From Watersipora subatra (Eukaryota > Bryozoa > Gymnolaemata > Cheilostomatida > Watersiporidae): a DNA stretch of 64,000 nt. The notes below the pieces were generated by a model that did no database searches, had not been told where the DNA came from, and saw nothing but the letters and a program-made list of their open reading frames with translations. The position numbers were made by a program, and so were the translations under genes. Shown here one piece after another: positions 17,058 through 64,000 of the stretch. The first letter of the stretch is position 1. Each line of letters opens with the position of its first letter. The stretch spans positions 19,516,108 through 19,580,107 of the forward strand of contig NC_088717.1 of the NCBI RefSeq assembly GCF_963576615.1, given 5' to 3'.

Positions 17058-18017
17058 TTAGAAAGGATTGCTTAACGCAGTCACCGTAGTCTTCTTGCCG
17101 GTCGTCAACTCAATCGCCTGCACCTCACTGCGTCTAATCAACCTGTATGCCTGTACTCTGTAGTTTTCATTCAGCCAGCCGTAGGTCACTGTGTTCGCTA
17201 TGCCATATAAGGTAAAAAGTAGCACGGTGAACCATGTCATCACCAATGGGCAATGGTCCTTCAGATTCAAACCAAAGCATATGATCACAGGACAAAGACA
17301 GATTACAAACTGAATATTAATAATCACGATATATAAGGTGGCCTTCACCACCTGATTGTCTTTAGTTATTTTATGTCGTTTGTGCATTCGATAAAGTTCG
17401 ACACAAATTAGTAGTTGCAGTCCTGAGGTTATCGCAAAAGGTATGACAAGAAAGATGGTGGAAAAGGATGATGGAGCAACATCGACATAGTTGCTAGCTC
17501 CAAAAATTGTGTTCAAGCAAAGGCCAGACGAGAAGGCCGTGTCCCTGATGATGCTGATGAGTAAAATGAATAACCATCCACTCGCGATCCATATATAAAA
17601 GTGTTGGGTCACCTTATTCTGCTCGTAGGTGAGAGGTTTACACAGAGCTAGATACCTGTCATAGCTGCCTAGAGTGAACAAATAGTAGCGAAAGTGTGGA
17701 GCGATGGTCGTGAGGATGCTGACGACAGCAGCGATTGCTTTTGACCTTTGGTATGTAAAATTATGCAGCTCACAGTTTATCTGTAAGAAGACAGAGACGT
17801 TTGAGAGAATGTCAACAATTCCTATATGAATTAAAATTTTGAGATACGGCTTCTTCCTCAGCGATGGCATCTTGACGAGCACTACGATATGCAAGGCGTT
17901 AATCATGGTTGAGATGAAACCGAGGCTCGAACAGATGATCTCCCAGTACCTGTTGTGGCAGACCACAGTCGAAAAAGCGCAAAAAGGTAGAGTGCTGTTG
18001 CTTTCACCTTCGTTCAT
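17058..18017 (-). CDS. Rhodopsin-like (class A) G protein-coupled receptor
   Basis: A single intact exon of 319 codons, ATG at 18017 and stop at 17058-17060. Seven hydrophobic segments are visible. Class A hallmarks: Asn40 in TM1; Asp69 in TM2 (IGIVD); Cys82 and Cys167, placed for the extracellular disulphide; an intact DRY at 120-122 after TM3; Pro243 in TM6 (CLCP); and NTVTY at 275-279 in place of NPxxY, with the proline lost. N-glycosylation is possible at Asn7 (NST). The C-terminal tail is short, about 35 residues, with several Ser/Thr. The receptor should sit in the plasma membrane and couple to heterotrimeric G proteins. The ligand cannot be inferred; it resembles the expanded, intronless orphan or peptide/amine-like receptors of invertebrates. 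The next ATG in frame (Met38) would remove part of TM1, so the first start is preferred. Confidence 0.88.
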   Translation of the reverse strand: MNEGESNSTLPFCAFSTVVCHNRYWEIICSSLGFISTMINALHIVVLVKMPSLRKKPYLKILIHIGIVDILSNVSVFLQINCELHNFTYQRSKAIAAVVSILTTIAPHFRYYLFTLGSYDRYLALCKPLTYEQNKVTQHFYIWIASGWLFILLISIIRDTAFSSGLCLNTIFGASNYVDVAPSSFSTIFLVIPFAITSGLQLLICVELYRMHKRHKITKDNQVVKATLYIVIINIQFVICLCPVIICFGLNLKDHCPLVMTWFTVLLFTLYGIANTVTYGWLNENYRVQAYRLIRRSEVQAIELTTGKKTTVTALSNPF

Positions 18018-18910
18018 AGTGATGATGATACCTCAAACGTCTTCCGTGAGTGAAAGCCAGGTTCAATGGCGCAGAGTTGGCTTTCAATGCTGATACGGTA
18101 AGTGAAAGATTTTACTCTATATTGCAAGGTGAAAATACAATAAGATGCGGCGTCTCAAGAGAGTCTTTATCAATCTTGATGATCGCGTCATAGCAACCTT
18201 TATATTGCCTTTTTTCTATTGTCCGTAACAATTAAAACATGCCATCTGATTTCATCACACTAGTTAAACTTTTGCACAAGTATATTTAGCTTCTCCAACA
18301 TACTTTCATACTTTGGGTATTTTCGCAGCTTCTTTCCATGCGATAAGAAGATAACATTGTTCATAATTATTTTCAAAGAAGCTGCCCATTAGAGGGTCAA
18401 AATAAAAATCCAAAAAGGGCTCTTACAGGGTACTCCTCTGCTTGACCTCTGCTTGACCTCTACTGACTTCAGGCGTTACTGTAGAAGTATTTGGTTTTAA
18501 AAGCTTAATAAAATGTAATTATATTATGCCTTTTCCAGTTTCGTTGTAATAAAATTAATTTTACATACATAAAAGTAGACAAAATGTTGAACACTGTCAA
18601 TGTATACAAATTATCTCTTTAGTACTAATAAAATGCAAATATGATACATAGAATTCTGTTTAAACTCAAGAGCTTTAATGCAACGTGTCTTCAAATAGAT
18701 CTTTGAATATGCCGTTGTTTATATTCTAAAGATTTACAGACATTCAGACCTACAGACTAGATGCCAAAATGCCTAAAATGCCTATATATATATATATCAG
18801 ATATATATCTGATATATATCTGATATATATCAGATATATATTTGATACATACAATAAAGTATAGGCTAAAAGTCAGCATAAAGGGCTCGATACTAAAGTA
18901 GAGCTTACTA
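18018..18910. other. Upstream region of the GPCR with AT palindrome
   Basis: This would hold the promoter and 5' UTR of the receptor. No TATA box or other element can be assigned with confidence. A palindromic AT microsatellite made of ATATCAGATATATATCTGAT-type units lies at about 18782-18843, beside the Penelope-like block. Confidence 0.5.
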
Positions 18911-25455: not shown

Positions 25456-28400
25456 ATGAGACGCAAAGACAGAAATGTTAATGCTAAGACAAGCGAATCA
25501 CACAGCGAGAGCTCACAGGCATCTCAGTCAGGAGATGAAACGTCAGCAGATGCCACTCTGGCTGAGGAATCGGCAGTAACCAGTTCTGACTACAATGCTA
25601 GTCGCAAGTCATCGACATCTAATGACAGGAGGCAGCGAGATGCTGAGTCATCTGACCAAAGCAAGCCAGAAAAGGCTGATTACAGCAAATTCACTGATCT
25701 TCTGTCTGACTCGGTAAGCTAATTACAGACATACCATCACCAATATTAAAAGCTACTTTTGTTACATAAATGGTGATCTTTACTGTAATAAGAGATGTGT
25801 TTGTCACTATGTGTGGCACACGAACTTATTTTTGATGTTTTATCCTTATATACTTACATATAATTACTCTTATATATATTTTGCATATTGTGTCTGTCTT
25901 TCTTACGTGTCTTATTGCTAATACTTAGTTAGTTAGGCAGTAACTAAGCCAACATGTTGGCCACTATATTAATCATTATTCTTATACGGTTTCCTACCCG
26001 GTTCTATTATACAGTCAGGGGAAAATATATGTATATGTAGGGAGCGCTCTCGCTAGGAGAGCAGATTAGTCGCAGCTACACGACTAATGGAAGTTCCTTC
26101 GGAATAAAACGAACGAAAAACCAAACTCACTTTTCTTACAATTTATGCAACATTTATTATAATCTAGATTGTGCCTGAGTAAAGGCCAGATACAGTAAAT
26201 CTTTTACACATGCTTTGAAGTTTAGGAAAAATGATTCCCTTCAGCGGAAGTCGAACTTGAGACGTTTGACTTTCTAGAGCGACACTCTACTGTTTCCCAA
26301 ATCCATCACTTTTAACAATTGTGCAGTTTGTTATTACACCTCATGAACTCTGACGGTTCACCGGACTGCCAGATACTAGTATATATTATTAGCTAATTTC
26401 TTTCCCTACTTTGCTGACAAAATTTAGTTAAAAAACAGTAACTTATACATCATTGGCTGGTTTATCACCAATGCTTAGCTAAGAAGGAACCAAAATCTCC
26501 ATGAAAAAAATTTCCAAATTCAAAAAACAATACTAAAGTTTTATTTAGTACAAATTGAATACTTAATGCTTAAAGTTTAATTGAGGTGCTTGCACAGATT
26601 TGTTTGTGTCCAAGACTGTTCCATGAATGAATCTATACTACTCTGGGCTATGAACTTTCAACCCTCAACCATACCTAATTTACCCCCAGCCATCATCATT
26701 TCACTCTCAATCATGTCCATTTCAACCTAAACTGCACCAATTCCATCTTCCCTATTCATACCATCCTTGTCTACATTTATTCTATACTCAACCAGGTTGA
26801 TTTTATTCTTAATCCCATTTTACCATAGATATAGTAAACCCTAGATTGGCGAATAGCTATCATTACAATGGAGCAAAAGTGAGGCCTATAATTGGCTGTT
26901 GTTTTCACGACGTTATGTCGTAGTGATGTGCATCACAGCATCAAAGCCTTCAATTGAGCAATAAGTTTAGTAGTGGAAGCACGCTTGGCATGCTAGTTTT
27001 TAAGTCATAAACATAACAATAAGACCAAATTCTTAGTGAAATGTCATCAGAAGAGACCACAACACCCCAGGTATATCCTGAATTGCCCATAACAAAACAG
27101 AACTTCAACTCAAAACAAGAAGTTCTCAACAATATCATAAGCTATCTATGCCGATTAAAGACACCAAGCTGAAAGCTGCTAGTGGAAAATAATAGGAAAA
27201 TCATCATCATTTCGTCATTGGTTTTGAGTCAGCAGCCAAATCTGTACATGGCATTGCTCAATATCTTTTCAGCAACTACCCTTACATCAACTATTTCCTA
27301 ACCTTAAAGATCAACCAGGATCACATCGAGATTCTGTTTTCAACAATACGATCTAAGGGTGGCTATAACAATAACCCGGATGTGCAGTGCTTTAGATCTG
27401 CACTTCGAGCACTGTTCATAAAAGCAGATATCACACCGTGTCCCAATGTTAACTGTATTGATCTGGATGTGAGCAGGGCTGAAAAAACTGGCCAACTCCT
27501 GCTACATTCTCTGGCTAGAAAGAAAAAGAAAGAAGAGACAAAAGCTGAGGAAGGTGAAGATGAGGAGTTCGGTGATGAGGATTTTTTTCTAACTCAAATG
27601 TGATGAATGTATTAAGTTCTTGACCGATGTCGAAGTAGTGGGAAGTAGAAATAGTGATGACATAACCCTAATCTCAGTTAAAAACAGAGGAGGATTGGTG
27701 ACCAGATTGATAGGCCGAATATGTTTTGCTGCAGAAAAGTGCCTACGTTCACACATGGAGAGCTGTGGTATCACACAGAGAGCTTTTAAACAAGTAACAT
27801 CACAGACAGTAACATATATGTCTTATTGCATAACGTCCATCAAGGTTTTACATGTACAGTGCATGCCAACAGTCCACTCAAAACTATAGTAAATCGCTAT
27901 ACTAAAATTAGAATACACTATGTCGCTTCAAAGCAGGAATCTAGTTCAACCAACCTTAGACAAAAACTATCTCGTCTAGTTATTTTCAGTCATGTCTAAT
28001 GGGTGTTTAATACAGTGGTCCAGCGTAACTGCTTCTAAATATCATTTGATTCATTAGTTCATTATTAGTTTAATTTCTATTTGGTCACTCTTTGTATTAT
28101 CAATGATATAGAAACTTCTAAATCATTGGTATTATCCATTACCATGTGTTTAAGATTCTTGCCTTTCTCATCCAAAGTCATTACAGTCATACTTCGACTT
28201 ACGAGCTTAATGCGTTCAGGGACTGAGCTCGTATGTCAATTTATTCGCATGTTGGTGCAATTTATTTATATATAGAACAATTAAATATATATTGATTGTT
28301 TTCCATACTCTGAAAATGCAAATAAAACACTCAAAACAATATAGCCTATTGTAACAGAAAGAACATGTTGGTTATTGTCCTAACTTACCACATGCTTTCA

Positions 28401-34400: not shown

Positions 34401-37400
34401 GCAGAAGTAAGGGAACACAATTTGCACCGAGTCACCATCTTAACTCTAACAGAAGAGAGCTGCATAAGGATCCTATTGTTATTCTTCATGCCCCGATCAT
34501 TGGACGAAAGTCAACAAAAAGGTCAAGAAGTGAAGGTCATTTGAACCGGAGAGAACGCTCTTTGAATCGAAGGCAGCTAGCATTGCCTACAAACAAAGTG
34601 AATTCTTATAGAACTGTCAGGGATTGGCAGAGGTACAACACTGTTAGTCCTAAAAAGCACTCGAAAAGTAAAAATAGACACGCCAGTTATCACAAAAAGT
34701 CTCTACCTGTTCGCCCCAAGCATTCACCAGTTTGGAAAAAGTCTCCGGTCCTTCTTCGAAGACATTCTCCTAATATTTTAAGACAAGGGAGAAAAAGGTT
34801 TCAGCCCTTACGTTATCAAAGTTTTTCAGTTCCCCGCCAAAGCAAGTCAGTCCCTACCAGAGGTCAAAGTCGACGCAAAGCGGTTCAACGTCACCGATCG
34901 CTCTACAGCAAACGACCCAACAAGTCCACAAACAACTTGGGATTGAGCAATGAAAACAACCATGCAATTCAATTGTTGAACAGTATGCTGGAAGGAGTGC
35001 ATTTCAATTCCAAAAAGAAACTTTTCTTGCCTGGAAAATTATCCGACACCACTGGTCAACGACATATCTCAATTTTACCCTCAGTTGATCCACCAGTCGC
35101 GACTTTGAGCAATCTAGGCATTGCTTCGACTGCAGCAGTTTCAGAGCACCCTCTCAAAGCCAAAGCTTCTCGAGAAAGCGTGAACACGAAACGATACGTT
35201 CGTATGATTCATGCTAAGCTTGACGATTTAAACAGCAGAAAAAAGCTTAACAAAAATGAAGTATACATTAAAGATCAATACAAAAAACTTCTACTTTCAA
35301 ATGTACGCCAGACAGGCCATTTCCTGCCGTATAAACAGAAGCCCCTAAACCAAAATAACAACGCTGATGACCCCGAACATATCAGCGACAGGGATGATCT
35401 GAGTGACCAATCTAAATCTGCAACTCAGCTAGAAAATCCTCAAGAAACGCTGTCGAATGTTGGATTAGCAGCATTTTCTTCAGCAATGGAAGACGCTAAA
35501 GAACAACTGGAGACAAACGACAACGACAATGCAGCATCGGCAGTTTTCCGTCCAGTCTTTGATAACGTGAATGTGAGTGTAGCTTTGTTTGTGATTGCAA
35601 TATGAACTCATATGATACTACCCAATCTACTTGTGACACAATTGAAATTCTTATAAAATCTTTTCGTAACGAATGAGCGGTTGTTGTAAGTACGTGTACG
35701 TTTAAAATAAATTGAATGAATAATGCAGTCCAATTTTTCTCTACCAGACCAATGCATCCTATGGTGACCTCCATCCCGAGGTCTCACGCCTGCAGCACTT
35801 GCTGAATCATAAGGAGATTCATCATCATGAATTTCTCTCCGCTTTCACAGGTACAAATCCTGAATATCTTTGCCTTCCGGAATATCTTTTTCCTCTGGAA
35901 TATCTTTTTCTTCTGAAAAATCTTTTTCCTCTGAAATATCTTTTTCTTCTGGAAAAATCTAACATGTCTGATAATCGATTAATTACTATTTATTGATGTT
36001 TCTAAAGATAAGGAGTTGTTCCCACTTTATTGTGAATCTGGATGAGATTATACTGTTACAAGTCTTCTTCATGAAGTGAATTTAGGAATAATTAACAGAA
36101 TAATGAATTTAGTTCAAAATTTTGAGTCTAAACTTTTAGTTATTGGACTGTTTGTTAGGCAGTAAACAAATCTAATTATTAAAGCCTCTTCTTGGTGTCA
36201 GAATTAAATGCAATGTGATTAATAAACTCGCTGAGAAGATGGGCAAGTTAAACGGAACGCGATTGAAGCTGAGTTGAACTTTGAAGTAGTTGCAAGCTGC
36301 AATCAGTTAAAACAGCTTCTCCAGTTTTTTTCAAAGACTGCAACACTTGCACCTTTTACTCAGTTATATCCAGCATCATGTTTGTATAACAGCACTACAT
36401 CCTCCACTGAATCTATATTATATTAAACATATATATCATTATTGAAAAGGTAAGAAATCATTGTTCCTCCGTGTAGTGATGAAAATAGATAAATCCAATA
36501 TTAGTTTGTCAAGACTGTTGTTTAGATGCGTTAGTAGCAAAGGAAGCAGCAGTGGACTTGGCAGAGGAGCAGCAGGATACAATCCACATGTTGGATAGAG
36601 AGATGAGCAAAATGAGAGATGAGTATGAAGACATCATTCACATAAAAGTATGTTATAGCAAGGAAGCAACTGGCATTGTAAGGTTAGCAGTTGGTAGAAA
36701 AAGGTTAATAGTCGATAGACTAAGGTTAGTAGCTGGTAGAGTAAGGTTAGTAGTCGGTAGACTAAGGTTAGTAGCTGGTAGAGTAAGGTTAGTAGTCGGT
36801 AGAGTAAGGTTAGTAGTTGGTAGAGTAAGGTTAGTAGTCGGTAGATTAAGGTTAGTAGTCGGTAGAGTAAGGTTAGTAGTTGATAGAGAAAGGTTATTAT
36901 TCGGTAGATTAAGGTTGGTAGTCGGTAGACTAAGGTTAGTAGTCGGTAGATTAAGGTTAGTAGTCAGTAGAGTAAAGTTAGTAGTCGGTAGATTAAGGTT
37001 GGTAGTCGGTAGACTAAGGTTAGTAGTCGGTAGAGAAAGGTTAGTAGTTGGTAGAGTAAGGTTAGTAGTCGGTAGAGTAAAGTTAGTAGCTGGTAGAGAA
37101 AGGTTAGTAGTTGATAGAGAAAGGTTATTATTCGGTAGAGTAAGGTTAGTAGTCGGTAGAGTAAAGTTAGTAGTCGGTAGAGAAAGGTTAGTAGTTGATA
37201 GAGAAAGGTTATTATTCGGTAGAGTAAGGTTATTATTCGGTAGATTAAGGTTAGTAGTCGGTAGAGTAAAGTTAGTAGTCGGTAGAGAAAGGTTAGTAGT
37301 TGATAGAGAAAGGTTATTATTCGGTAGATTAAGGTTAGTAGTCGGTAGAGTAAGGTTAGTAGTCGGTAGAGTATGGTTATTATTTGGTAGATTAAGGATA

Positions 37401-40400
37401 GTAGTTGGTAGAGTATGGTTATTATTCGGTAGAGTAAGGTTAGTAGTCGGTAGAGTAAAGTTAGTAGTCGGTAGAGAAAGGTTAGTAGTTGATAGAGAAA
37501 GGTTATTATTCGGTAGAGTAAGGTTATTATTCGGTAGAGTATGGTCATTATTCGGTAGAGTAAGGTTAGTAGTCGGTAGAGTAAAGTTAGTAGTCGGTAG
37601 AGAAAGGTTAGTAGTCGGTAGAGTAAGGTTAGTAGTCGGTAGAGTAAGGTTAGTAGTCGGTAGATTAAGGTTAGTAGTTGGTAGAGTAAGATTAGTAAAT
37701 GGTAGAGTAAGACTAACATAATTGTGCAGTGAATGCGGAAACCTACTGGTGTTGTTTAACAACAGAACAGCCACGAATACTGTCGAAAAACTCCACTTCA
37801 TAAACTTTTTTAAAGAGATAATATTTCACTAGAACGTTTATTTAACATCCACTAAAACTCTTTCTCTTCCAGTCACCGACTTCAACCACTGATTTTCACT
37901 AAAAATAGAATACGTAATATAAAATAGTCTGCATGATTCATTTCAAAAATTAAACCATTCAGCATACCATGATTTGATTCTTCAGAACAATGAGATAGAT
38001 TTACAAAATGAGGTGCTGTCTTCTTACAAAGATGAACGATTTTCTTTGACTAAAGCCCTAGAAAAGGCTACAAAGTGCATGGTCAACAAACTACAGGCTA
38101 AAAATGCTGCTCTCAGGGTAGGTGTTTGAACATCCTAGAGCTAAGTTACATTACTTATAATACATGTACATTGTATGTACCAGTCAGTTTAAATCTGTCT
38201 TAACACTCTGCTCATGCGTTGGTTTGTCTTTTTATTCTTCCACATGATATTTTTCTAGCTATACTCTATGTTATGGTTATTGGTGTGCCCCTTGTTTGTC
38301 GATTGGGTAATACCATTATTTGTTGTCATTGCTACTGATATACTTCATCATACTACATCAGCTGCTGGGCTTAGAAAAGCTTTCCATTTCAACTTTTGAG
38401 TCAAATGTAAAGATATTGATGGTGCCATGGTGCACCAGCCGCTCAATGTTACAGTTTCATTGGGCCACAAGCTAGAAGTTTGACTAGGAGGTTCACATTA
38501 AGTTCCTCTACTCTGAATTTTTGCCAAATTCAATATAATATATAAAAAGAAGAATATAATATAATAAGAAGGGATAAGAAAAATTAGCTTAAAATCTTTT
38601 TAAACATAAACAAGAAGTTTGGGGTTTATCAACCAATTGATACAAAAATGCATTCAGTTTAACAAATGAGTTAAAGTTTTTCTGGTAACCAACATTTTAA
38701 GTGGGCCATTATATAACGTGTTATAAAACTTTGAGTTCTGTAGAAGAAGAACATGGCTCACCATGATGAAATATCTGAACTAAGAAGAATAGCGCTGCAA
38801 CAAGAGGCACAGCTTAAGAATCTTACCGAAACTTTACAGGTTGGTTTACAAATGCATGATTGAAATATAAGATCAACTGGATCTCTTGGAGTCATCTAAC
38901 CTTGATTCTACATACCTTGTCCTCATGGAAAGTTCTAGAAAATACATTTGAAAATCCTGATAGCAGCCTGCTTTAAAGAATATAGCATTGTTGAAACTTT
39001 CTTATTGCGCTGTTAAACACATTGGTCTTTGTAATCATTTTCAAGCTCAACAATATATTAATATTGTATTAATTTTATTAATATAATAATTACCTGCAAG
39101 CATTTTTTATCTCTGAAAACTGAAAAATTGCACCAATACTTTATTTTATTTTTAAGAAGGCCTTTTGATGTAAACTATGTGGCTATTTTTCTGAAACGTT
39201 GAAATGCTGCTTTTATTGAAACTAAGCTTTGCTGTTACAAATTATTGTGTTAATTTAACTGTAACGCCTTTTCAAATGCTGAATTAAAATATGGTGATTT
39301 ACTTTTAGAGAGTGAAAATATTTCACGAAAGAGAAGTCGCCATATTCAATACGAAAATAAGACAACTTTATGACTTGACAAAAACGAAAGAGGCAGAAAT
39401 CCATGTATGTTAACTACTCTGTAAATATTATTGTGAATAATAATTTTTTGTGTAAAAACTTTGTGAGTGACTTGAATATGTTTGAAACAGAAACTTTATC
39501 TGTGAGTTTATAGGAACAGGCTGTGTTGTTCTCCTCTCTAACATCTATATTATAGTATTCAAGGTTACTCACAAACAGCTGGTATTGTTGTTTCTAGATA
39601 CATGTATATCCTTATAACAGCAGTGTTTAACTGTTCTAATATATGACATATATGACCTATGTGTATGGAAAATACAGTATATATAATATGTTTGTCTTCA
39701 CGCATGTATATATAATTGTATATACAAATTTTTTTTCTTTCGAAATCAAGCTTTTTCTAAACCTGATGAGAGCAGATTTTTATCTGCTTCAAACAAATTT
39801 GTATTGATTAACACCAAGATTTATAGCTGATGCAGAGAGATTTCAATTCCTAATTAGACGTAGTTCCCAAGCGTGTAGGACATAGTATATCTATGGAATA
39901 ATAGGCCGTAACAATAGAGTAGGAAGCACAAGCTAAACTACATTGAAGTAGCCAAAGGCAGATCACTGCTGACAGCCTATAAAAACAGTGTGTCAGCTTA
40001 ATAAGTGAATAAAAATACTCTGAATGGCATCCGAGACAACATCTTCAAACATCATGCGATCATTTATATATAAATCAAAAATCATAGAAGTGAAGTTTTC
40101 ACTGTAATCTATTTAATCACTGGTTGGAAGTACCGCTTTCATCACTAATTGTTAACAGATTGTTTAGTATTCTATACTAAACAATAGCCCTTAATCTCTG
40201 TAATTTCATTTGTTTCTCATTTGTTTTACATTTGTGTGTTTCTAGTGTTCTGTATGTTTCATGTTTCATATTTATTATGTAGGTAAGAAACTTTTTTTAA
40301 TATACACAAGGAATGTTGGAAAACACGAATTCCATTCCAGCGCACTAATTTCGTTAGACAAATTTTTTGTAGGTTGCAAGTAAATGTTTTTACTGACACG

Positions 40401-46400: not shown

Positions 46401-49400
46401 TCCAAACAGCCATCCAGACAGACATCCAAACAGACATCCAGACAGACATCCAGACAGACATCCAGACAGACATCCAGACAGACATCCAAACAGACATGTA
46501 GACTAACATTCAGACAGACATCCAAACAGACATCCAGACGAACATCCAGACAGACATCCAGACATTCACCCAGACAAATATCGGCATTGTATGAGCAGAC
46601 AAATGGACAGTCAGACAGGCAAACAGACATCTAAACAGATGGGCAGACAGACACCTAAAGAAACGGGTAGACAGACAGACACCATACAGATGTTAAGGAG
46701 ACGCACCAATGGATACATCGACTTATGCTCAGCAGACACTTGGAAGAACATGCAGGCGCTTCTATATAATCTAATGGCTATAATATTGATGACATGATTA
46801 GCCGGGACACTAAAAGTTAGTGGCTCACAGAGAACAGAGATGGCCATATCATATTCAACTTTTAGTGTAGCATGTGTGATAATATTGCATAGTATGAAAT
46901 TTTGCCTGGCAACCAACCAGCAGGTAAATCTCTTTAGTCATCTTTCAATAGGAGTGCCCTGGTCAAAGCGCACTGGCTATGCAAATCCATCTTGTTGGAA
47001 ACCGAGCTCATCTGGCAATGGAAGGTCGACATCTTTGCTCACAAAAGCCTGTTCTATTTGTCGATGACGAGACGGAAGAGAGTATGCGTAAAGAGATAAC
47101 TTCACGTCCTTACCAAACAGGTTTGATGAGTTTAACCTACAAGTCTAGTTTCTATGTTGTCCAAATTTATTCGGTCCTCAGACCCCAAAACATTGCCAAT
47201 ACATTGTCTATAATTTTTTGGAGTTTTCTATGATAGTCTAGGACAGTCTATAGTCTATAGTCCATAGTCTAGGACACTAGAAAACCAACTCAGACTTTTA
47301 TTTAAGAGGATTGTTTTCCGTGTCAGGTTTGTCTTTGATTCTCTGTTTGTGTGTGATCGCCTATAATTTTCTATTATTGCGCACATTAGTCGACAATAAT
47401 TGCCTGTTATTTTTCATAGTTGTCTAGACCTGTCTTTATTTGTCTACTAGCTATGCTACCCAGTATTGCCCAGGTGTTAAAAATCAGCTTATAAACAATG
47501 AGAAGTAATGAGAGTTGCCTGCCATTTGCTATTAGCCTGACAGATTGCCAATGGAAAATTTTAGTAAGCTAACTAATGACAATCACTTATGCAATCACCC
47601 TGCATGGTATGCAAAGGTGTTGGGTATGTGCTACCATATAGCAACTTATATCGGCAAGCAAACAACTCAATCTCTGTGGCCTATTGGGTAGGGCATCGGA
47701 CCGGCGAAGGGTAGGGTCCGAAATCAAATCTTCTTTAGTATGGATTCCTAATTTTAAGATTTTAATAGCTATAGCCGGAATGCAGGCAGACATCGACATA
47801 AAACTTATTTTGAGAAATATATATGTATATAGATGGTCCAAATGGCAGCACAGCCACTGAGAGTAGCCCTAGTTTAGTTGTTTTTTTACCTGCTATATAG
47901 ATCTTATGTTCGTCTTCTCACCACTCATTTCACCTTGACCTTTTGCTGTATTATTAATGATTAATGTCTAGCTGATTGAGAATCAATCTAATTAAGTTAG
48001 AACTTTCTAGAAGACACATTCTCTCAAAAGCATATACTGTCTGTATCAAAATCTTGCAGCTTCTTTTAAGGGCAGCAAGGTCTTTTACTTAGAATTATTC
48101 TACTAGTGGAAATAAGAGTGTTTACGGACTTCCCATGGTGCACCTCTATAGTACACTTAGAAAATATTTTGTTGATATTGAGGACATGTGATATGCAACT
48201 ACTTACGCTTGCGCTGGATTTTGGAGTTATCCTCTACACAAACACGACATTAAACTTTAGACATCATACTAAATACTTATATTCGCTAAAGGCTTTGCTA
48301 AGCGACTAATGGTCGTCATGCCAATTTTTCAAGCGCTCTGCTAACTAAATTTTCTTGTAACCATTACGACAGTTACTACAAAAAATAATTGATCAGGGCA
48401 CCAGTAAGTATTCATACAAATTGTGGTAGCCCTAGGTGTGTTGTACTGCATTTAAGGGCTGTATATATGTACACCCACAGCTGCCAGCAATCTAGAAAAA
48501 GCTATCCTCTTATCCAAAGTGCAAGAGACAAAACCAAAGAAGACTAGCTCAGACTTTTATTTAGGAGGATCGTCTTCCGAGTCAGGTTTGTCTCCTCCCT
48601 ACAATTAATATTTGATCTTATTCGATTAATTATCTGGTTAATTGTTTATCCTGATAAATTAGTATTAAATCTTATTTGTTTGTGTATTTATCAGTTTAGG
48701 TGTTTTTTGCAATTAATATCAACCTCTGTTTCTTCTACTGTAGCTTAGGAATGCATTTAGTAAGCTTGTTGAACAAGTTGAGTCGGCCTACAGACAAAAA
48801 AAGTTTGAAATGATGCAATTAGTACTGAAAGTAGTCACGTGCTGTAAATTAAAACAAAATCTGCAGCGTAAAGCATACAGACTTAAGAATGCAGTGTTGT
48901 TGAGCTTTGTCAACTACAGCTGTGTTTGAGTAGATGCTAGCGCAAGAGGTGAACAGAACGAAAGCCCCGGATCAGATGATTCAGAAGGGGAAACAGGAAC
49001 TAGTTCAGGTGATGAACCAGGAACTAGTTCAGGTGATGACAAAAGTGATGGCAGCAGCACTAGCAGTGGCAGCGGAAGCAGCAGCAGTGGTACTCAGTCT
49101 AGTGCAGGTTGGTGTTTGGTAGTTCATGGTAATGCTTCGGGTTTAGTAGTCTCGGGCAATGGTACTCAGTCTAGTGCAGGTTGGTGTGTAGTAGTTTATG
49201 GTAATGACTCAGGTCTAATGGTCTCGGGCAGTGATACTCAGTCTAGTGCAGGTTGGTGTGTAGTAAGTAGTTTATGGTAATGACTCAGGTCTAATGGTCT
49301 CGGGCAGTGGTACTCAGTCTAGTGCAGGCTGGTGTGTAGTAGTTTATGGTAATGACTCAGGTCTAATGGTCTCGGGAAGTAGTACTCAGTCTAGTGCAGG

Positions 49401-52400
49401 CTGGTGTGTAGTAGTTCATGGTAATGACTCGGGTCTAATGGTCTCGGGCAGTGGTACTCAGTCTAGTGCAGGCTGGTGTGTAGTAGTTTATGGTAATGAC
49501 TCGGGTCTAATGGTCTCGGGCAGTGGTACTCAGTCTAGTGCAGGTTGGTGTGTAGTAGTTTATGGTAATGACTCGGGTCTAATGGTCTCGGGCAGTGGTA
49601 CTCAGTCTAGTGCAGGCTGGTGTGTAGTAGTTCATGGTAATGACTCGGGTCTAATGGTCTCGGGCAGTGGTACTCAGTCTAGTGCAGGCTGGTGTGTAGT
49701 AGTTCATGGTAATAACTCGGGTCTAATGGTCTCGGGCAGTGGTACTCAGTCTAGTGCAGGCTGGTGTGTAGTAGTTCATGGTAATAACTCGGGTCTAATG
49801 GTCTCGGGCAGTGGTACTCAGTCTAGTGCAGGTTGGTGTGTAGTAGTTCATGGTAATGACTCGGGTCTAATGGTCTCGGGCAGTGGTACTCAGTCTAGTG
49901 CAGGCTGGTGTGTAGTAGTTCATGGTAATGACTCGGGTCTAATGGTCTCGGGCAGTGGTACTCAGTCTAGTGCAGGCTGGTGTGTAGTAGTTCATGGTAA
50001 TGACTCGGGTCTAATGGTCTCGGGCAGTGGTACTCAGTCTAGTGCAGGTTGGTGTGTAGTAGTTTATGGTAATGACTTGGTATGAATGTTCAACCTGCTA
50101 AAGATACAAAATGCAGTTGCTGCTTGTTCCTTAGCTGCTGCTTGTTCCTATTGTTAGTTCCTTTGGTTTTGTTCAAGATTTCAATTGTTAGGATTGACTG
50201 GAAGCGGAAGGTCTTTAGTAGCTTAATAGCTGTGTTTGCTAGCTATATAGCTGTATTTAGTAGCTATATAGCTGTATTTAGCAGCTATTTAGCTTTGTGC
50301 AAAGGTCTCTGCAGCTTTCATCATGACCTCCGATACGACCTTTAAAACTGCTGAATATTCTAAATATTTGTTAAAATCTATAGAGTTAATGGAAAACCTC
50401 TGGGAAGGTAAGTAGTTCTGATTTTTTTACGGTGTAAAATAATGTCAAGGTCATCAAAATGTCACTCCAACCAGCCGTCATCTTCTTAAATCTGAGAAGC
50501 CTTAAGTGGCAAACCAAAATCTCACCAGTTTTCCTAAAGTTTTTTTGTAAATTTGTTTGCATTGATTTCTTTGTGCTTTTTAATGGTGATATGATGAAAT
50601 ACAGATTTTTGCATAATAAGCATTACTTTAGATGTTGTTGTGATTGGTGCTGCAAAATTTAGTAGCTATTCTTAATATTTCATATTTAGAATTATCTGGT
50701 GTGTAATATCTATCATCCAGACATCATTGAAGTGCAGTATACAGCTGATTAAGTTTTCTTCACAGAGAATCGCTCGTCCAATGCCAGAACTAACTTCAGT
50801 CGAAATGCTCGAGCAATGTCCTCTACAAGCGATGAAAGGCGAGATTATGAAGCTGCAGATGAAGACCTTGATGATTTCACAAGCCGACTGCTACAGGAAC
50901 TTAATGACGACCGCAAAAAAACCACTAATGAAGCGAAAGGTAAAAATTACTACGAGTTAGAAGCCTGGGAATCGCAGGTTCTAGTATAATAACAGATCTC
51001 TAATTCAAACGTTAGGTATTAGGCTATTTACAAAGTTGATATGAAGTATTAAAATATAAGCAGAAAAGCAAAAGATTTTAAATGTTGATATTTGCAGGAC
51101 TAAATATTTACCAGCCAGCAATAAATATATAGTACATGTAGCTGTTACCTTATAAGCCCACTTATTTGCCAACTGTAGACAACGAAAAATGTTTAGTAAA
51201 CTGAAAGTCGACTTATAGGAGCATAAATCCAATTGAGCTCCAATTATAGACAAGACAATTTCTCAAATAACCCAAAATCACTCGTGTCTCATTTGCTGCT
51301 ACAAACTGCAATAAAACTTATTTAATAAAACAATTTGACAAATAAAACTCTGTTTTACTGTTTTTACTCTGGATGTCGCATTCTAGCTAGTTCAATAATC
51401 CAACCATAAAAATAGATGGTCATTCAAGTGGCTGTTTTCATGTTGATCAAATAGAACCTTAGTTTCTTTATGTTAGTAAAATTCAGAAAAGTTAAGCTAT
51501 TCTTTGATAAGGAACACTTATGAATGCACAGCATATCGATACTCTGTTGTTATTAGCCCAAAGGTACTACGAGCTTTCTTATTTGAGTGATTCTAAACTT
51601 TTCATCATTTTTGGAAGGATTTTAAGAGTCAGCATGACAGCGTATACTGTAAGATTTTGAAGCCATTTCGCATGCTGGTCAATCCTTAGATGAAGCCATT
51701 TTAGTATGAGCCATTTTAATACTAACAGTCACACAAAATCGTTTAAAACAACTTAACCACTGGCTTTATGGGAAATTCAAAGCATTTTTTGCTATGAACT
51801 CTCAATGGATATCTACTGAGGGTCAAACTATTATCTCTGGTTCACCTAAGCCAAAGGAAACTGACTTGGAGCCATACGAGCTTGTAGATGGTTTTCCTAA
51901 CCCCCCTCAAAGAGCAATATTGCTGAGATCTACGGCTAAAGTTGGAGGTTCTGTCAACCCTCTTCTCTATACTAAATAGTTTGGCATGACTTCAAGTAGC
52001 GTAATGAGATTGCTATTATAGCGGGACACTGGGGAAATAGGATAGGGAGGTGTGAATAACAAGGATGTTGAGTATATTTGGGGTACACAAACTAGCTACA
52101 CAAATGTCTGAAAGCTATGCACAAGTTGGTGACATCTTCACACAAGCGTGTGATGGCTATGTGTGTGTGGCAGCTACACACAAGTGTGTGACAGCTACGC
52201 GCAAGTGTGTGACAGCTATGTGCAAGTGCGTGACAGCTATGCGCAAGTGTGTGACAGCTTTGTTTGGGTATGTGACAGCCTTATTATTAGGGTATCTGAC
52301 ATTTTGTTTTGGGTATTTGCTCTTTGAGATTTTAACCTTGTTAGCATCGTCTCATATCATTGCAAATGTGAGCTTTTTGCAGAACTATGTCCAACTAAAG

Positions 52401-57896: not shown

Positions 57897-57916
57897 TTTA
57901 TTCTTTAGAAAATAAA
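57897..57916. promoter_or_regulatory. Paired poly(A) signals of two convergent genes
   Basis: TTTATT at 57897-57902 is an AATAAA on the - strand, 266 bases past the ATG16L1-like stop. AATAAA at 57911-57916 on the + strand lies 154 bases past the stop of the large gene. If both are used, the two 3' UTRs overlap by a few tens of bases. Confidence 0.65.

Positions 57917-58167: not shown

Positions 58168-64000
<5,833 letters not shown>

Follow-up and report, generated by a model that had tools for sequence, protein, structure and literature searches.

The locus described here raises the question of whether a tandem array can lie across the end of an exon and multiply its 5′ splice site, and what such an array would mean for the gene. 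It belongs to a 64,000-nucleotide stretch of the Watersipora subatra genome (contig NC_088717.1, positions 19,516,108 to 19,580,107; hereafter the window), where a first-pass annotation had described a 72-bp array amplifying the end of a predicted plus-strand exon, exon 18, together with its splice donor. The source genome comprises 784 Mb in 239 contigs, and the window is AT-rich (G+C 36%) and full of minisatellites. On balance we lean towards explaining the array as a minisatellite that took its start at an exon/intron boundary, like the 'mirages' known from amphioxus, with splicing from position 49107 to position 50315 and the array removed as intron.

Structure of the 72-bp array and its repeated junction

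The 72-bp array is real beyond doubt (Table 1). Its units start at 49092, 49164, 49236, 49312 and so on to 50032; the spacing is 72 bp and unit 3 alone measures 76 bp, the extra 4 bp being a tandem duplication of AGTA. A two-unit query against the source genome, in a search that skips very common words and gives match counts as lower bounds, returned 7/7 matches at the array locus and none elsewhere among the matches. The exonic share of the unit comprises 24 bases (49084-49107), and these recur ahead of the later junctions with 0-2 differences among the units examined: relative to unit 1, there is one mismatch in unit 2, one in unit 3, none in unit 4 and two in unit 5. The exon end is thus repeated with its junction, as first described, but over 24 bases and not 19.

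The junction reads GTGCAG/GT (the slash marks the splice position) in units 1, 2, 3, 7, 11, and 14 (6/14), and GTGCAG/GC in units 4, 5, 6, 8, 9, 10, 12, and 13 (8/14). The fourteen donor-like junctions counted earlier are too many, given the eight that carry GC, and the units also hold other donor-like sites, TG/GTGTGT and ATG/GTAATG. Listing the junction sites unit by unit bore out the remaining structural claims. The three donors 49107, 49179, and 49251 have the same sequence, lie 72 bp apart and all leave phase 1; the insertion in unit 3 shifts the frame, and all eleven later sites are displaced by one; GT is present in 3/3 units before the slip and in 3/11 after it, with GC in 8 of the 11 later units. 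The frame of exon 18 stays open across units 1 and 2, enters unit 3 and ends at TAA 49278, past the duplication. The duplication also makes a donor, GTA/GTAAGT at 49262, which is in phase 0 and would need acceptor 50293 (score 1.61) or 50305 (2.49).

In the explanation that we favour, a 72-bp stretch, 24 bases of it from the 3′ end of exon 18 and 48 from the intron behind it, would first have doubled and later expanded through slippage or unequal exchange, leaving the copies in the intron. The functional donor would most likely be 49107, the junction of unit 1, joined to acceptor 50315, and the identical donors 49179 and 49251 could yield minor in-frame forms with 24 or 48 additional residues. 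The array is probably intronic past its first unit, and in-frame alternative donors are possible. Later units would be inert intron, their GT or GC state being set by spread and homogenisation of variants.

Table 1. Features of the array locus and of the adjoining putative exons (window coordinates; a slash marks a splice position)
Feature	Position	Strand	Basis or details
Putative exon 17 (LRNAFSKLVEQVESAYRQKKFEMM...), 3′ end uncertain	48744-48867	+	Acceptor score 4.94, open frame
Putative exon 18, acidic/Ser/Gly-rich	48934-49107	+	Five phase-1 candidate ends: 49008, 49032, 49107, 49179, 49251
72-bp tandem array, 14 units	49084-50077	+	Tandem Repeats Finder (TRF): period 72, 13.8 copies, 95% matches; unit listing
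Candidate 5′ splice site GTGCAG/GTTGGTGT, unit 1	49102-49115	+	Score 5.25; identical sites at 49179, 49251
Third, final in-phase candidate donor	49246-49259	+	Phase listing of junction sites
AGTA duplication, unit 3; creates GTA/GTAAGT (phase 0, score 4.21); leads to stop TAA 49278	49260-49280	+	
Remainder of array, 272 codons open in post-duplication frame, then stop TGA	49267-50082	+	
Putative exon 19	50315-50407	+	Acceptor 2.67, weak; donor 8.32, strong

All 14 units share one open 24-codon register, which continues the frame of exon 18 save for the slip in unit 3. The whole array could accordingly be read as a coding minisatellite, in which each unit adds one repeat of 24 residues (TQSSAGWCVVVHGNDSGLMVSGSG) to the protein in the frame of exon 18 and the present allele is frameshifted by the AGTA duplication. 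The codon composition of the unit fits this reading, as 12/24 codons are of the RNY type (purine, any base, pyrimidine) versus 5 and 5 in the other frames, a count reached by 4% of open random 72-mers, and the change between GT and GC is synonymous (GGT to GGC, glycine). Nevertheless, the reading frame is not kept, being broken in unit 3 with the stop that follows, and being open is nothing unusual for a 72-mer (24% of random sequences of this length). Synonymous changes account for 6/15 variable sites, which is not clearly above expectation (P=0.18; few sites), and the exonic part of the unit is no less variable than the rest (4/24 versus 11/48 columns, P=0.76). The first 17 unit columns are invariant (P=0.010), although these columns were picked after the data had been seen. 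We consider a coding array improbable.

It is very improbable, in our view, that the unit acts as a 24-residue cassette between CAG/G sites, each able to serve as acceptor and those of the GT units also as donor. Splicing from unit to unit would then drop whole units together with the slip in unit 3, giving in-frame isoforms tuned by copy number, and a mirage would be turning into alternative exons or introns outside lancelets.

The distribution of GT and GC had been considered compatible with selection against out-of-frame donors, a proposal for which we found no support and which was rejected. GT in all of the first three units has P=0.055 even under independence of the units, and tandem units are not independent because the interior ones are nearly identical. 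Read in the frame of exon 18, the change is synonymous, and the GC variant turns TTG/GTGTGT, 4 bp downstream, into CTG/GTGTGT, which raises the score of this neighbouring donor from 4.17 to 5.63. Moreover, with any donor past unit 3 the mRNA would still contain the stop at 49278. The spread of one GC variant in the array, which was the other option of the first-pass annotation, is the simpler account. An RNA hairpin was also examined as a candidate and rejected, as the fold of two units (z -2.15, 4/200 shuffles as good) is too weak to use.

Putative exon 18, its candidate donors and the local gene model

Splice sites were scored with a generic, hand-written matrix for donors and acceptors. As a yardstick we used 30 junctions inferred between neighbouring chaperonin exons of the same genome; of 33 at first, three had been set aside for a low total score, one of these having a GC donor. 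Because the same matrix had served to infer the junctions, the comparison is in part circular. A Viterbi gene finder over-predicted (213 exons on the plus strand in 22-60 kb) and was used for exon candidates only. By this yardstick the candidate donor GTGCAG/GTTGGT is ordinary, its score of 5.25 equalling or exceeding those of 37% of the 30 inferred chaperonin donors. T at position +3 is found in 3/30 of these donors and GTTGGT in one; GTTGGT is also present at the predicted donor 38839, in the same gene as exon 18.

Over 48936-49091, RNY codons make up 31/52 codons in frame 48936 versus 7/52 in each other frame, and because of this difference frame 48936 of exon 18 was taken as coding. The putative exon 19 is open to its donor with a phase-1 entry only, with stops in the other two frames. 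AATAAA and ATTAAA, the two signals scanned for, were not found between 48849 and 51047, and an AATAAA lies at 57911, past the end of the downstream part; splicing onward is therefore favoured.

Several observations weigh against splicing from 49107 to 50315. The frame of ATG 48934 is likewise open through exon 18, a codon model scores both exon 18 frames alike (0.33 versus 0.32, and 0.19 versus 0.19 per codon), and the ATG 48934 frame with acceptor 50305 gives chains scoring 12.07 and 11.76. Two sites reading TTCAG/GTGATG, at 49008 and 49032, lie outside the array, score 5.56 and are in phase 1. Enumerated within score thresholds, the chains that link exon 17 to exon 19 and keep the frame numbered 553, and the top score of 13.13 belongs to chains using 49008 and 49032, followed by 12.82 for the three array donors. 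The donors of exon 17 are weak, with scores of 1.70 (48843), 0.82 (48830), and 0.78 (48867), and the best of them is lower than all 30 chaperonin donors. At the other end, only about 1/30 of the inferred acceptors score at or below the acceptor 50315, and an ATG shortly after the start of exon 19 could open another gene. Finally, a Pfam search with 10 open reading frames (ORFs) and 3 protein sequences gave no homologue of the gene above the curated cut-off, and the PDB searches gave no homologue of it. Below the cut-off the array ORF 49267-50082 did give matches; the best of them, to DUF7652 (26.7 bits versus a cut-off of 27), was taken as a repeat artefact and rejected.

The sites at 49008 and 49032 suggest that the array might be purely intronic, with exon 18 ending at one of them and the first unit merely starting in exon-like sequence. 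Both are in the required phase, score above 49107 and are used by the two top chains. However, the gap between 5.56 and 5.25 is trivial, and the RNY-rich acidic, Ser and Gly pattern, measured over 48936-49091 as a whole, continues without a stop past 49032, which makes the sequence look coding there. We regard an exon end at 49008 or 49032 as unlikely. Of the candidates, 49107 seems the likeliest donor, yet sequence alone cannot choose among them.

The weakness of the junctions on both sides of exon 18 would also suit an arrangement of two genes, in which one gene finishes with exons 17 and 18 and another starts at ATG 50322, the array being a C-terminal tail or part of a 3′ untranslated region (UTR). 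The weak acceptor 50315, the lack of a good donor in exon 17, and the A at -3 of the ATG near the start of exon 19 agree with this arrangement. Nonetheless, neither of the two scanned polyadenylation signals is present where the first gene would have to end, and the phases of exons 18 and 19 match, so that two genes seem rather improbable to us. Since both acceptor 50315 and the exon 17 donors are weak, the local gene model is the least secure element of the case, and it is weaker than the first-pass annotation implied. The broader claim, that an array lies across an exon end and 5′ splice site and provides three in-phase candidate donors, holds as plausible, with exon 18 itself a prediction.

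Tandem arrays and exon boundaries elsewhere

Tandem arrays make up 21.6% of the region 36326-57882, yet they span 1/24 hand-placed exon boundaries (1/11 donors and 0/13 acceptors). The chance of one or fewer spanned boundaries among 24 is 0.022; arrays here tend to miss exon boundaries, and chance could account for the 72-bp array coinciding with an exon end. Array coverage is 12.4% for the window as a whole versus 3.2% for 99,911 bases around chaperonin exons. An ungapped test requiring at least two nearby copies was positive for 0/30 chaperonin donors and 0/30 acceptors versus 30/1500 random positions, and among 11 window donors (a few placed about 1 base off) 49107 was the sole positive. 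Donor motifs were not enriched over shuffles in the units of 28 arrays (Kolmogorov-Smirnov P=0.18). The idea that arrays are generally drawn to 5′ splice sites was rejected on the basis of the chaperonin donors, the window boundaries and the motif comparison. As the case stands, neither selection nor a special pull of arrays to splice sites found support.

A second candidate boundary array is present in the same genome and supports the mirage reading. It is a 43-bp array (L048:8358-8834; G000:C7:2954857-2955333) with 11 copies of GATATT/GTRAGT, 43-45 bp apart, and the first of the 11 copies is the candidate end of a chaperonin exon itself (KIDDI, GATATT/GTGAGT), which we take to be CCT4-like. 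The CCT4-like donor was positive in the ungapped test; it stands outside the 30 chaperonin donors because the chaperonin family match ends there.

Mirages have been proposed as raw material for new introns. With two candidate mirages in a single genome of non-lancelet appearance, including one at a conserved chaperonin exon, the process would become open to counting: how frequently boundary arrays arise, whether splicing invariably uses the first donor, and whether units ever turn into exons.

On contig C11, a 41-bp array (L051:6512-6908) starts near the chaperonin gene donor TATG/GTAGGT. A 57-base query across this junction aligns to the array with a score of 26, with 2/2000 shuffles as good, and one set of 500 shuffles contained a score of 31. 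A 32-base query at the junction scored 13, under the shuffles' 95% mark of 18, and the resemblance is therefore mostly intronic. As a boundary array, the C11 case is suggestive only.

The window also contains a 21-bp array at 36678-37711, with about 49 units, many of them carrying the donor-like GTAAGG, in the predicted intron after 36647; it is also open in frame with its exon to 37718. This array was rejected as a boundary copy, as the predicted donor 36647 lies upstream of it and is not repeated in it. Regarding the chaperonins, twelve chaperonin-like matches with open frames of 391-519 codons, four of them with an internal stop, are spread over 8 Mb (G000:C3:22.6-30.7 Mb), and are perhaps retrocopies or a spread intronless family. 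Other features found in the window are a rhodopsin-type G-protein-coupled receptor (GPCR) ORF (7tm_1; 17061-18032, minus strand), a transposase fragment that carries a TNP-like RNase H C-terminal domain (27196-27600, plus strand), and WD40 exons of a minus-strand gene (60375-61870).

Comparison with known systems

In coding variable number tandem repeats (VNTRs) of this type, the unit length is divisible by three. The array shares this property with them, as 72 bp correspond to 24 codons in one open register continuous with the exon; it differs from them in that the frame is broken in unit 3 and synonymous change is not clearly in excess.

Intron gain by tandem duplication of an exon segment bearing AGGT has been modelled by Rogers and described in the potato RNA-dependent RNA polymerase (RdRp) gene (PMC4974935). 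Similar to that model, the array repeats CAGGT, with a donor-like site in 6/14 units and an acceptor-like CAG/G in 14/14. In contrast to the model, an intron probably pre-existed at this boundary, and a new intron is not demonstrated.

Our literature search found reports of mirages from lancelets only, one of the queries having also required the word amphioxus, and a search for minisatellites at splice donors or boundaries gave no further relevant report. According to PMC3087553, amphioxus mirages are minisatellite-like tandem duplications of exon/intron boundaries, present in Adh3 and in the globins BflGb6 and BflGb9, with units of 10-72 bp in Adh3 and 150-160 bp in the globins. AG/GT is kept in many but not all units, splicing is apparently undisturbed, and the length is unstable. 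Similar repeats are mentioned for PGBD5 and TnC in PMC3902484. Undisturbed splicing and length instability are reported for amphioxus, whereas the present array is known from the sequence of one assembly. The likeness extends to the short unit, its 72 bp lying within the range of Adh3; to AG/GT in part of the units, here CAG/GT in 6/14 and CAG/GC in 8/14; and to central units that are homogenised while the edges of the cluster have diverged. A tandem unit across an exon/intron boundary would be a further shared trait, the boundary here being a predicted one with 49008 and 49032 as rivals. The locus would accordingly represent a genuine array of the mirage kind, and a new example of a known phenomenon.

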